Shown: one piece after another, positions 1 through 62,327 of the stretch
Position numbering within the stretch: the stretch's first letter is position 1
Layout of the letters: every line of letters begins with the position of its first letter
NCBI GenBank assembly: GCA_002118135.1
Contig: BDIU01000039.1
Span: 310,001-374,000, forward strand
Reading direction: 5' to 3'
DNA: 64,000 nucleotides
Source: Trebouxia sp. TZW2008
Lineage: Eukaryota > Chlorophyta > Trebouxiophyceae > Trebouxiales > Trebouxiaceae
Made by a program: the position numbers and the translations under genes
The notes under the pieces: generated by a model
The model's input: only the letters and a program-made list of their open reading frames with translations
Databases searched by the model: none
Told to the model about the DNA's origin: nothing

Positions 1-59
1 ATTTGTTGGCAAACTCCCTGTGCCACGTCTGGTAGCAGGCAAATGCAACTTCAAAGCCA

Positions 60-59700: not shown

Positions 59701-62327
59701 CATTTGTGCTTTGCACATTGCAGCCTGTGACATGTACCTCGTGCAGGTGTCATTTCCATTTGTGCCGGTTGCATTGTCTAGCATGCATTTCTTGTCAACG
59801 TCAGGCGGTTGCATTTGTGTCTGTTGCATGTACCATTTGCATTTCTGCCTGTTGCATCATCTAGCATGTGTCGGTTGCTGTTGTCAGTCTGTCGCACATT
59901 TGAAGCCTGCTGAAGCCTGTTGTGTCCATGTAGTGATCACAATGCAACCACTGCATTAATGACGACTTTTGAAGAGACTCAGAGGCCATATACACAGTGC
60001 CAAAGTTAGCTTGTGGTGAACTGTCTCTGTGGTGCAAGCTGCTGACAGCCAAAACTATGCAAGCATGACACGAGCTGCAGCAGCTACTAACACACCAACT
60101 ATAAGCAGGTCAGGAGACGGCAGGAGCAGATCTTTTTGTAGCTGCACAGAGCATTCTGCTGTAAAGTTAGATCTGCTGTGCGTTGGTTGAGGGAAGTTCA
60201 GCAGAGACATCTCTTTGTAACTGCACAGAGCATTCTGGGTCAAAGTTAGGTCTGCTGTGCATTTGTTGAGAGAAGTTCAGCTGAGACAAAGCTGCGAGCA
60301 AGCTGCGCATTTTTTCCCTTGGCAGCAACTTGCCCCTGTTCTTCACAAATCACAATCATACATCTTCCTTGGTCATGCAGCTTGTGCTTTGTGTTTGCAT
60401 GATGCCTTGCAGCACAAGCAAACCTGCGACTGAGTAGCATGCTCACAGGAACGCACCTGAGCTCTGGAACGATATTCTGCTTTTCCTCTTCTGTCTCATA
60501 CTGCCGCCGCTTGATGTCAGCCAGATCTTCTTTACTGAGCTTGGCCTCTGCCATCTTGCGTGTCTTGGCATCATCCCTTTCTTTCAGCCGCTGCTCAAAG
60601 GCCTCACGCTCTAGCCTACAGCATGTCCTCAGTTGTCATGACAATGGTCATTGTCAGTCAGCAAAATGGTCGCTCATCAGTCACCATCAGCATCAACAGC
60701 AGCAGGAGCAGCAGCAGCAGCAGCAATGGCGACAACAGCAGCAACAGGGTTGCTAGCGAGGGTGGAGGATCCTGCTGGACACAGAGGAGTGCAACAAGCA
60801 CTGCAAGAGCAACAAAAACCTTGTAGCCACTGAGACGGACTGACAGCCTGCAGTTCGCATCTGCATTCAAACCATCTGGCAGCATCTGTTCCGCCAAGAG
60901 ATGACGTGTGCATCAAAGTGCGAGACCATGCACTAAGCCTGGCTTAGGGCAACAGCATGACAGATAGGATCTGATGAACCTTTTTCATGCAAACAGAAGG
61001 TGGCCTGACCTGTCCGCTTCCATCTCAGCTTCCTTGCGAGCAGCCTCCAACGCTTCTGGGTCAGCTGCTTCATCATCGCTAGCTTCCTCCCAGGTGCGCT
61101 TGCGCCGCTTTGGCGCTGCCAGGTTCACCCCATCTTCTTCAACATCGTCAGTCGCTGCATTTCAACCGAATCTGACAGCAGCTTCCAAGAAATGCAGGCA
61201 GCACACCTCAAGTATCCATCTTACAATGCTAATGCATCTGACTTTGCAGATATGCATCGAGAGAAAGACCAAGTGAGAGCAACAGCTTGCAGTTGCACAC
61301 AGTGGTCTTTGTTGATAATGAATGCCTTGGTCATCCAAGAAACTTGTTCCCCTGCCAGAATGTACCTACTCAAAGATACCTCTGCGGTGAAATGCAGTGC
61401 TTGGTTGCCCACTGCATCTGAATGTCTTTGTATCAAGTGTCCTGATAAAGAGTAACTGCTGTACCTGTTTTGTCTTTCTTGAGCTTTTTGTTTTTCTTCT
61501 TAGGCAAGGCAGCTGTCGTGGGCGCTGGCAAATCTGGAGCAGCTTCATCTGCATCGTCATCTTCCAGCAGTAAACCATACTGGGCGTTCTGCTTCAGAAA
61601 CGCCCTGGCTGCAGCCTCCTGGACCCTTTGGGTTGGGGCTGCTACGGGTGCCCTCCCATTGCTGCCAGATTTTCCTGGGAGCCTGTCAAGCAGCTCCTGA
61701 GCAAACTGCCTTGTCCCGCTGTTTGCTGGTAATCCACCCTGCGAAAATTTTCTCAGCATTTAGTGCTGGTATATAAGTCAGCATGCAGCACATGCTGGAA
61801 TGCCTGTTGCGGCTGTGTGCACCTTAACTGGGCAAAATCTCTGTAGAAAGCACATTGAATGATGAGGATGCAACATGCTGTCTTGACAGTATACAGGTGT
61901 CCAGTTGGGGCAGAACAGCATGCAAAGTAGTGAAGGTCACTGATTTGCAGCAAAGAAAGGTGCAGATTAACGACGATGCTGACCTGTGCCTGCAAGTCAT
62001 TGACCAATGCGTTGACGTTTGGTGCCCTTCGCGCTAAGGCTGAAACATAGGAGGTGGCAGCATCAGCAGAATAGCCTGCAGAATGCAGGGACAACTCTCA
62101 GCAACGGCTGCATGTGCCGAAAACAATATTACCAATGATGAAACACAGATGGCAGAGCTTTGATGTATGCGACTCGTTGTCTGCAGGCGAATTTGCAGCC
62201 AGACAGCCAAGTGCAGCAGTGCACATGTGGCTTCGGCAACGCCGAACGTGCTGTACTGGCAGGGATGCGTACCCAGCAAAGTGTACAGCTGATCCGAGAT
62301 CCAATCCTGCAAGTTTCTGTCGCTCAT
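50766..62327 (-). CDS. PRP2: Pre-mRNA-splicing DEAH-box ATPase PRP2/DHX16
   Basis: Seen: 16 exons: 62327-62273, 62075-61984, 61738-61465, 61154-61010, 60615-60457, 59376-59095, 58811-58631, 58224-58021, 56993-56746, 56421-56202, 55845-55549, 54256-54037, 52880-52657, 51984-51775, 51556-51326 and 50954-50766; 3231 nt, 1076 aa. The N-terminus ([19 protein letters not shown]) and VFEDQIDFI match the PRP2/DHX16 branch. Core motifs: [10 protein letters not shown] near 455, [25 protein letters not shown] near 553, SAT near 585, [15 protein letters not shown] near 650, [12 protein letters not shown] near 710, NQRAGRAGR near 755, then the winged-helix/ratchet and OB-fold parts ([23 protein letters not shown]). 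Family knowledge: it remodels the Bact spliceosome before the first splicing step. Its own introns are crowded with exon-edge copies. It is divergent from ATG12. Confidence 0.96.
51995..52260 (-). repeat. Upstream copies of DHX16 exon 14
   Basis: On the minus strand, 52100-51995 copies the exon start and middle ([49 protein letters not shown] in translation). 52262-52150 is a second, more worn copy ([13 protein letters not shown]). Both precede the working exon at 51984. The nearer copy stays close to identical over some 70 bases. Confidence 0.88.
52905..53045 (-). repeat. Upstream copy of DHX16 exon 13
   Basis: 53040-52910 on the minus strand repeats exon 13 from its CTGCAGGCAA splice site: GTGGTGCTGATG, CTTGGCAT/CTGGGCAT, ATGGATCCTCCGCCCAGTGA, then diverges. 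The translation keeps [10 protein letters not shown] but loses [10 protein letters not shown] and its frame. Confidence 0.88.
53100..54036 (-). repeat. Tandem array of DHX16 exon 12 end plus donor
   Basis: The exon end encodes [13 protein letters not shown]. Downstream on the minus strand, copies of the (GTCTGATACCACTGTGCCTG, AGA-TCAGAGGACCAACCT) box lie near 53215-53270, 53400-53445, 53565-53612 and 53725-53770. A second pair of elements encoding [13 protein letters not shown] text lies near 53770-53825 and 53895-53960. The intervening text (CAGCTCAGCAAACAGG, GGCAAAACCTCCCGC) also repeats. The period is about 160-190 bp and the copies are decayed. Confidence 0.85.
54295..54780 (-). repeat. 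Upstream copies of DHX16 exon 12 start
   Basis: The exon start reads TTTGTCATAGATCCTGGGTT. Minus-strand copies near 54375-54305 (GTCTGTGTTAGACCCTGGCT, then CATGGAGCC), 54480-54430, 54650-54545 (GTATGTCATAGAAACAGACT, then TGGATTCCCC) and 54790-54715 share the GGCTTTGTGAAGCAGA and CTGCAG edges. All lie before the exon, on the acceptor side. Confidence 0.8.
54920..55090 (+). repeat. Dispersed repeat, copy 2
   Basis: This is similar to 22541-22712 in the same plus-strand orientation: CCAGGTGTGTGTGGCTCAAG, TAGCCAGGCAGGCTTGTTCT, ATTCCAGATCTTCCTAGG, TGGAGGGGTTGAACC. It lies antisense to DHX16 in intron 11, whereas copy 1 is sense to ArfGAP. Confidence 0.7.
55255..55548 (-). repeat. Three downstream copies of DHX16 exon 11 end
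   Basis: Exon 11 ends with [22 protein letters not shown]. Downstream, near 55510-55455, 55412-55357 and 55310-55262, three tandem units of about 98 bp repeat it. They translate as [30 protein letters not shown] and [12 protein letters not shown], followed by GGTGAGCC donors in each case. The middle and first copies stay open in the same frame. Confidence 0.93.
56455..56545 (-). repeat. Upstream fragments of DHX16 exon 10
   Basis: Minus-strand 56505-56455 (AGGCCAGACTTGCAGCTGCT, GATCTCCTATGCTAG) and 56550-56508 (AGGACAAACTTGCAGGTGCT, GATCTCCTCTGCTAG) copy the exon interior [12 protein letters not shown] twice. Both lie before the exon. Confidence 0.75.
57010..57605 (-). repeat. Tandem array of DHX16 exon 9 start copies
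   Basis: The exon opens GCATGCAG/ATACCCCAGTATTTG at 56993. Four copies precede it, opening near 57138, 57280, 57437 and 57587, with period 145-155 bp. Translations include [33 protein letters not shown] and [15 protein letters not shown]. Each keeps a TG(C/T)ATGCAGATA- or ATGCGGATA-like edge and the CAGCCCA(G)AG core, then loses frame. Confidence 0.92.
57715..57960 (-). repeat. Downstream copies of DHX16 exon 8 end (motif I)
   Basis: Exon 8 ends [18 protein letters not shown]. Minus-strand 57935-57885 gives [12 protein letters not shown] again with a CAGGTGAGC donor. 57775-57728 gives a worn copy (GTGGCAGAAAAAGGGTCTGG, CAACACAACCCAGGTGAGG), and a scrap remains near 57640-57610. The nearer copy keeps a better-looking donor than the working exon. 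Confidence 0.9.
58300..58560 (-). repeat. Upstream copies of DHX16 exon 8 start
   Basis: Minus-strand 58545-58462 repeats the exon start after CTTGCAAGCT ([20 protein letters not shown], against [20 protein letters not shown]). Scraps with GAGGAAGCAGCA lie near 58375-58345 and 58315-58300. All precede the exon at 58224. Confidence 0.85.
58948..58983. repeat. 12-bp perfect inverted repeat in DHX16 intron 6
   Basis: TGCACAACATTT (58948-58959) and AAATGTTGTGCA (58972-58983) are exact reverse complements separated by 12 bases. A short hairpin could form in the intron RNA. It could also be a trace of an inverted duplication. Confidence 0.85.
59700..60290. repeat. Local repeats in DHX16 intron 5
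   Basis: 60133-60205 and 60213-60285 form a tandem pair of about 80 bp (TTGTA-CTGCACAGAGCATTC, AAAGTTAG-TCTGCTGTGC, GAAGTTCAGC-GAGAC). Nearby, 59700-59880 has a looser repeat of GTTGCAT, CATTTGTG and ATCTAGCATG. No exon match was noticed. Confidence 0.8.
60690..60745. repeat. CAG-rich triplet run in DHX16 intron 4
   Basis: CAGCAGCAGGAGCAGCAGCA and following (CAG)n, with CAACAGCAGCAA interruptions. It reads as CTG on the gene strand, like the CTG runs in ArfGAP intron 6 and aldolase intron 5. Confidence 0.9.

Follow-up and report, generated by a model that had tools for sequence, protein, structure and literature searches.

The window analysed here is a 64,000-nucleotide stretch of the genome of the green alga Trebouxia sp. 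TZW2008 (assembly GCA_002118135.1, contig BDIU01000039.1, positions 310,001 to 374,000 of the forward strand). Its introns contain short, worn copies of the edges of neighbouring exons, which are the subject of this analysis. Seven long genes were recognised in the first-pass annotation, which was made from the letters of the window. Pfam supports the family of three of them, pyruvate kinase (PK), aldolase and rhomboid, and galactose oxidase-like and ArfGap assignments for the oxidase and ArfGAP genes. The family of DHX16 is supported by a PDB sequence search, and a Trebouxia sp. C0004 protein matches 88% of the window DHX16, used as query, at 90% identity. The open reading frame (ORF) at 9091-10524, taken for the RAP protein, has no Pfam match at E ≤ 0.01. 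Exon-by-exon models cover DHX16, PK, aldolase and rhomboid, with the oxidase, RAP and ArfGAP genes outside them.

Exon borders were placed by chaining conserved coding cores using reading frame, profile position and splice-site scores. This gave 107 junctions with the consensus CAG/GTRMG at the donor and TGCAG/G at the acceptor (the slash marks the junction). After filtering, 94 introns were kept, 20 from the four modelled genes of the window and 74 from 21 loci elsewhere in the genome. The latter represent five Pfam families (PF00012, 35 introns; PF00118, 29; PF00224, 8; PF00171, 1; PF00133, 1). These loci are part of those found by profile searches (the PK paralog locus C38, described below, is outside the 74) and were picked by family and number of exon rows, not for repeats, a few having shown partial copies beforehand.

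Repeats in these sequences are nearly all direct. The sampled loci (167 kb, score at least 22) contain 181 direct and 6 inverted repeats, with 3 in a reversed-sequence control (count halved). Self-comparison of the whole window, a check put forward in the first-pass annotation, gives 126 direct repeats within 3 kb versus 4 inverted (score at least 24). The repeats are not due to chance, because the direct counts far exceed both the inverted counts and the reversed-sequence control. The wording that they occur throughout the window is too strong, since no repeat pair starts in 9 of its 32 two-kb bins (4-8, 10-12, 20-22, 26-28, 34-38, 46-48 and 62-64 kb).

Inside the modelled genes there are 127 repeat pairs: 42 acceptor-side pairs, consisting of an intronic copy and the start of the downstream exon; 37 donor-side pairs, consisting of an exon end and a downstream intronic copy; 42 intron-intron pairs; and 6 pairs in which an intronic copy lies upstream of its match inside an exon. 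Reversed, whole-exon and exon-exon pairs are absent among the 127. All 79 pairs that reach a junction, i.e. extend across a single splice junction or approach it to within 8 nt, have the fixed polarity claimed for the window, with acceptor copies upstream and donor copies downstream, and 72 of them cross the junction strictly (39 acceptor, 33 donor). The same holds outside the window: 19 acceptor-side and 18 donor-side pairs (35 strictly crossing) belong to the window, 23 and 19 (37 strictly crossing) to the 74-intron sample, and neither set has a reversed pair. Edge copies are present in 13 of the 20 window introns and in 20 of the 74 elsewhere, and repeats cover 40.5% and 21.5% of the intron bases, respectively. 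Worn copies had been claimed for all seven genes, and the claim stands for the four that were modelled; exon numbering differs between the two analyses, and they are compared by gene and side rather than by individual exon. A stricter definition leaves 72 distinct copies at 39 edges of 32 introns.

Profile searches place such copies in HSP70 genes as well. On contig C150, the exon for profile positions 131-205 is preceded by two partial copies (131-168 and 132-167), and in C165 the exon for positions 341-415 has its end copied downstream (369-415). The C150 protein is 98% identical to HSP70 proteins from four named Trebouxia strains. A further Trebouxia HSP70 entry, P0126, is annotated as 'variant 2' and has a differing end from KNQ onwards, which resembles intron retention and is seemingly unconnected with the exon-edge copies.

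The copies are often arranged in ladders. Two or more copies are found at 21 edges, and 21 of the 33 successive step ratios agree within 15%, compared to 10.0 expected when steps are shuffled between edges (none of 5000 shuffles reached 21). The nearest copy lies at a median distance of 149 bp (quartiles 116.5 and 171.5; 39 edges), which is near the size of a nucleosome or an Okazaki fragment and may hint that a replication step is involved. Spacing modulo 3 is 24/21/27 for the 72 copies, i.e. without frame preference. Introns with copies are longer (median 647.5 nt, n = 32) than those without (335 nt, n = 62; P = 2.4e-8), and hold 23,289 of the 46,608 intron bases of window and sample.

The two halves of an edge copy differ in conservation. 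Identity in edge pairs is 0.818 in the exon part versus 0.739 in the intron part, with 26 of 31 pairs favouring the exon part (sign test P = 0.0002), the difference to be expected of one constrained and one free copy. Among the 48 copies with an exon part of at least 45 nt, 14 carry a stop in the frame of the exon and 15 a frame-breaking indel. Of 33 donor copies, 29 keep an intact GT (neutral expectations 24.2, P = 0.07, or 22.2, P = 0.009), and of 39 acceptor copies 29 keep an intact AG, near neutral expectation (P = 1.0 and 0.40), counting only copies whose alignment extends at least 3 nt across the junction, which favours intact sites. Acceptors in the copies are neutral and donors possibly preserved. 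At 18 of the 39 edges the splice-site score of an intron-side copy equals or exceeds that of the site in use, and copies scoring as high as real sites suggest pairing across the exon.

Site choice in DHX16 can be read from an independent protein, P0001, which shares 98% identity with the stitched query for DHX16. P0001 matches the window over about 11.6 kb, yet the contig that encodes it is 5,089 nt long, too short to hold the introns of such a span, and is probably cDNA. Twelve of the 13 predicted DHX16 junctions are present in P0001 letter for letter; the absent one had earlier failed the border filter. At all ten copy-bearing edges of the seven copy-bearing DHX16 introns, P0001 uses the site attached to the exon, and at four of the ten it does so in the presence of an equal or stronger decoy, which in this one gene and among surviving duplications stays unused. 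When introns are large, the splice sites closest across the exon are chosen, according to passages of Carranza, Shenasa and Hertel (2022, PMC9225289). Site choice in DHX16 appears to fit this proximity rule, as far as one gene and its surviving duplications go; what is read here is which copy became intron.

One DHX16 exon end lies in a tandem array at 55286-55594, for which Tandem Repeats Finder (TRF) reports a period of 96 and 3.2 copies. The 96-nt unit is divisible by three and its frame is open throughout; each unit taken in through an intron-side donor would lengthen the protein by 32 residues. No such addition is present in P0001.

An internal comparison is provided by two old PK paralogs, C38 (L034) and C44 (L032), which have one intron in common. 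In C38, where exon borders come from alignments and reading frames and not from the border solver, the end of the upstream exon is repeated three times with a 147-nt step. In C44 it is the start of the next exon that is repeated, three times with a 141-nt step, and the shared intron has no detected donor-edge copy. This intron grew mainly from different sides in the two paralogs. Since its arrays differ, the intron is probably older than its copies.

Taken as a whole, these features are likely to be explained by tandem duplication of units that cross exon-intron borders, with the spare copies decaying in the intron. That tandem duplication took place and the copy attached to the exon was retained is very likely; that exon definition, i.e. 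pairing across the exon, is the reason why such duplications are tolerated is favoured with less assurance. The nuclear genome of this Trebouxia-like alga would undergo frequent tandem duplication of units of roughly 80-240 bp, the DNA event being presumably replication slippage or unequal exchange. A unit crossing one splice junction would put two equal splice sites in series, and the spliceosome would stay with the site nearest across the exon, leaving the mRNA unchanged and turning the spare copy into intron. Such a duplication would be nearly neutral and would lengthen the intron by one unit; further unit-wise duplication would build a ladder, and the spare copies would subsequently decay as intron sequence. 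The repeats are local, nearly all in the same orientation and head to tail, as judged from the 181:6 ratio of direct to inverted pairs, the 21 ladder edges and the TRF arrays. Border-crossing duplications seem to be tolerated about like purely intronic ones, because they are at least as common as a uniform model predicts.

Tandem duplication across borders with the exon-attached copy kept had also been the proposal of the first-pass annotation. It gains from copies that are direct, local, ladder-forming, confined to a single edge and better conserved in their exon part, as well as from the longer introns, the differently grown PK paralogs and the spliced sequence of DHX16. The polarity fares less well, not being strong independent evidence, and the edge copies need no process specific to borders. 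Random placement of pairs of the same sizes is expected to give 26.1 pairs of the claimed polarity and 7.7 reversed, and because it favours the claimed side by about 3.4 to 1, polarity was down-weighted as proof. A depletion of whole-exon copies was dropped as a further candidate signal, as none was seen and only about 2.5 such pairs are expected by random placement.

Targeting of duplication to exon-intron borders, by DNA breaks linked to transcription or the spliceosome or by the recurrent CAG/GT microhomology, would account for the observed 33 introns with edge copies versus 7 with purely intronic ones. In simulations of uniform tandem duplication with conserved exons, in which whole-exon and in-exon events are rejected, this ratio is 1.2 to 3.7 (P = 0.000 to 0.37) and is set mainly by the starting intron length. 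Introns that start at 260 nt or more yield 1.2 to 2.35 and fall short of the observed bias (P = 0.000 at 340 nt, about 0.04-0.06 at 260 nt), whereas starts of 150-200 nt yield 3.1 to 3.7 and reach it (P = 0.20 to 0.37). Much or all of the edge excess is therefore explicable if introns started short, because conserved exons keep the copies recognisable, with geometry adding to the effect. Tandem arrays are also found beyond the modelled exons (14037-14748, 161 bp unit; 43405-44091, 376 bp; 30288-30705, 172 bp), so that duplication is seemingly not confined to borders. Border targeting is thus unlikely and, as a needed ingredient, is rejected for now. That the copies are functional, as selected decoy, alternative or recursive splice sites, is very unlikely. 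Many of them match the consensus well and their donor GT is intact more often than either neutral expectation, an excess that may come from counting junction-crossing alignments; their acceptor AG is near expectation, their spacing shows no frame preference, stops and frame-breaking indels are present, and the spliced sequence of DHX16 skips them.

Ectopic insertion (RNA-mediated, introner-like or by templated repair) in place of tandem duplication would explain why the intron part is undetected in half of the testable copies, and why in the C38 PK paralog (L034:2899-3138, transcript strand) a 48-nt exon-start piece, 98% identical to its source, lies 144 nt away without adjoining it. It is nevertheless highly improbable in view of the nearly uniform direct orientation, the strict side bias, the regular ladders and the head-to-tail TRF arrays. 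Near-identical copies dispersed over many genes, as in introners, were not found with the one query searched against the genome, a 1.2-kb piece of DHX16 (53700-54900, which takes in an exon with parts of its two introns), whose sole match, in a search that skips simple repeats and very common words, is its own neighbourhood. The least probable alternative is intron gain of the type proposed by Rogers, in which the copies would be relics of coding sequence and an in-exon tandem duplication would have created the intron. Coding sequence is the source of the copies, and passages of PMC3443670 accept tandem genomic duplication as a route of intron gain. Yet many copies include intron-side sequence beside the splice site, ladders stand at one edge of an intron, and at the one intron tested, that of the PK paralogs, the different arrays indicate that the intron probably came first; a new intron where none had existed was not seen there.

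Several points weigh against tandem duplication of border-crossing units, the most serious of which concerns the intron part of the copies. An extension test, which proved too strict on gaps, detected a similar intron flank in 31 of the 72 copies and pointed to possible copying limited to exon edges. With a gentler test, applicable to 36 nearest copies (3 further ones are too short), the intron part is similar at P < 0.05 in 18 and not detectably similar (P ≥ 0.05) in the other 18; it is undetected in 7 of the 14 nearest copies whose exon-part identity is at least 0.85. In the four printed young cases without a detected intron part, a faint continuation can be seen by eye in three (aldolase twice, rhomboid once), and in the HSP70 case in L025 the alignment, inspected by eye, has no match continuing past its reported end. 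Undetected intron parts in half of the testable nearest copies are the weakest link of the tandem model; either indels quickly erase intron sequence, or simple tandem units do not account for all of the copies. The polarity, moreover, is largely forced by tandem geometry and weak as independent evidence, and duplications spliced the other way would mostly be removed by selection, leaving the survivors alone visible. Copies farther from the exon are not consistently less similar to it (the nearer copy has the higher identity in 20 comparisons and the lower in 12, with one tie), and the age gradient along ladders is weak. The difference in intron length is partly built in, as a copy adds length and long introns offer more room. 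The gene sample is non-random, dominated by HSP70 (35 introns) and chaperonin (29) with 10 others. Support from spliced sequence is confined to DHX16, with the cDNA origin of P0001 argued from the length of its contig.

The copies in the window genes are listed in Table 1. The downstream repeat of the last modelled PK exon was judged by eye from ORF translations and stands outside all counts. Two other repeats of the window are a 156-bp tandem unit with runs of TGC triplets in the ArfGAP region (23363-23723) and an ATTAC pentanucleotide microsatellite of 34.6 copies (43098-43270).

Table 1. Exon-edge copies in the modelled genes of the window (positions in the 64,000-nt window; exon-part identity in brackets)
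Feature	Position	Strand	Length (nt)	Donor-edge copies	Acceptor-edge copies	Details
DHX16 intron	58225..58630	-			58540	Exon start 58224; junction in P0001
DHX16 intron	56994..58020	-	1027	57885, 57730, 57597	57135, 57277, 57427, 57583	First intron base 58020, functional exon start 56993; junction in P0001
DHX16 intron	55846..56201	-			55964	Exon start 55845; junction in P0001
DHX16 intron	54257..55548	-	1292	55452, 55356, 55259	54369, 54481, 54637, 54754	Donor-edge copies form 96-nt tandem array of exon end and donor; junction in P0001
DHX16 intron	52881..54036	-	1156	53724, 53564, 53401, 53221	53032	Junction in P0001
DHX16 intron	51985..52656	-			52139, 52269	Copies upstream of exon start 51984; junction in P0001
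DHX16 intron	50955..51325	-		51202		Junction in P0001
PK intron	16203..16779	-			16295, 16390	Copies upstream of exon start 16202
PK last modelled exon	15220..15422	-				105-nt unit x2 (TRF); exon end seemingly copied downstream
Rhomboid intron	32607..33322	+		32683, 32825		
Rhomboid intron	33447..34549	+		33610 (0.92), 33760 (0.81)		
Aldolase intron	39327..39841	+		39476 (0.87)		
Aldolase intron	40021..40636	+		40155	40469, 40237	
Aldolase intron	41599..42171	+		41799		70-nt copy of next exon start at about 41937

To our knowledge, the growth of existing introns without transposons seems to be much less discussed than intron gain. No account of intron growth from exon-edge copies was found in the titles and abstract openings of the literature searched, subscription papers lying mostly outside it. 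That new introns can arise by tandem duplication is established, as stated in passages of PMC3443670 and PMC2891723. As in the model of Rogers, described in passages of these two papers and of PMC4974935, coding sequence is duplicated in tandem in Trebouxia and one copy ends as intron; unlike in that model, in which duplications internal to exons make new introns, pre-existing introns grow at their ends. The closest likeness is to the RdRp gene of potato, for which Ma, Lan and Niu (2016, PMC4974935) describe a new intron that arose when a piece of DNA lying over the border of an intron and an exon was duplicated in tandem. There, too, the duplicated piece takes in the 3′ end of one intron together with the beginning of the following exon and brings along its splice signals. 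The new intron of potato came from activation of a cryptic donor within the upstream copy and ends at the second acceptor, whereas in Trebouxia splicing passes over the intron-side copy and, without gain of an intron, the one already there becomes longer, repeatedly and in several genes. Another lichen alga, Asterochloris glomerata, has about 9 introns per gene, and its introns are more numerous and larger than those of fungi, according to passages of PMC6652019; those of its passages that deal with introns, intron length, exons and tandem repeats contain no mention of exon-edge copies.

Elsewhere in the genome 20 of the 74 sampled introns bear visible exon-edge copies, and half of all intron bases studied lie in copy-bearing introns. 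It is conceivable, though it can be put forward only tentatively, that Trebouxia introns lengthen mainly by border-crossing tandem duplication, made nearly cost-free by exon-definition splicing. Splice-site choice would then be readable from DNA alone, with equal, duplicated sites resolved toward the exon-proximal one. If this is true, the genome would be a record of very many natural splice-site competitions, in which identical sites were set in series and the exon-proximal one won, and would offer a test of exon versus intron definition that needs nothing but sequence and may be applied to any genome.

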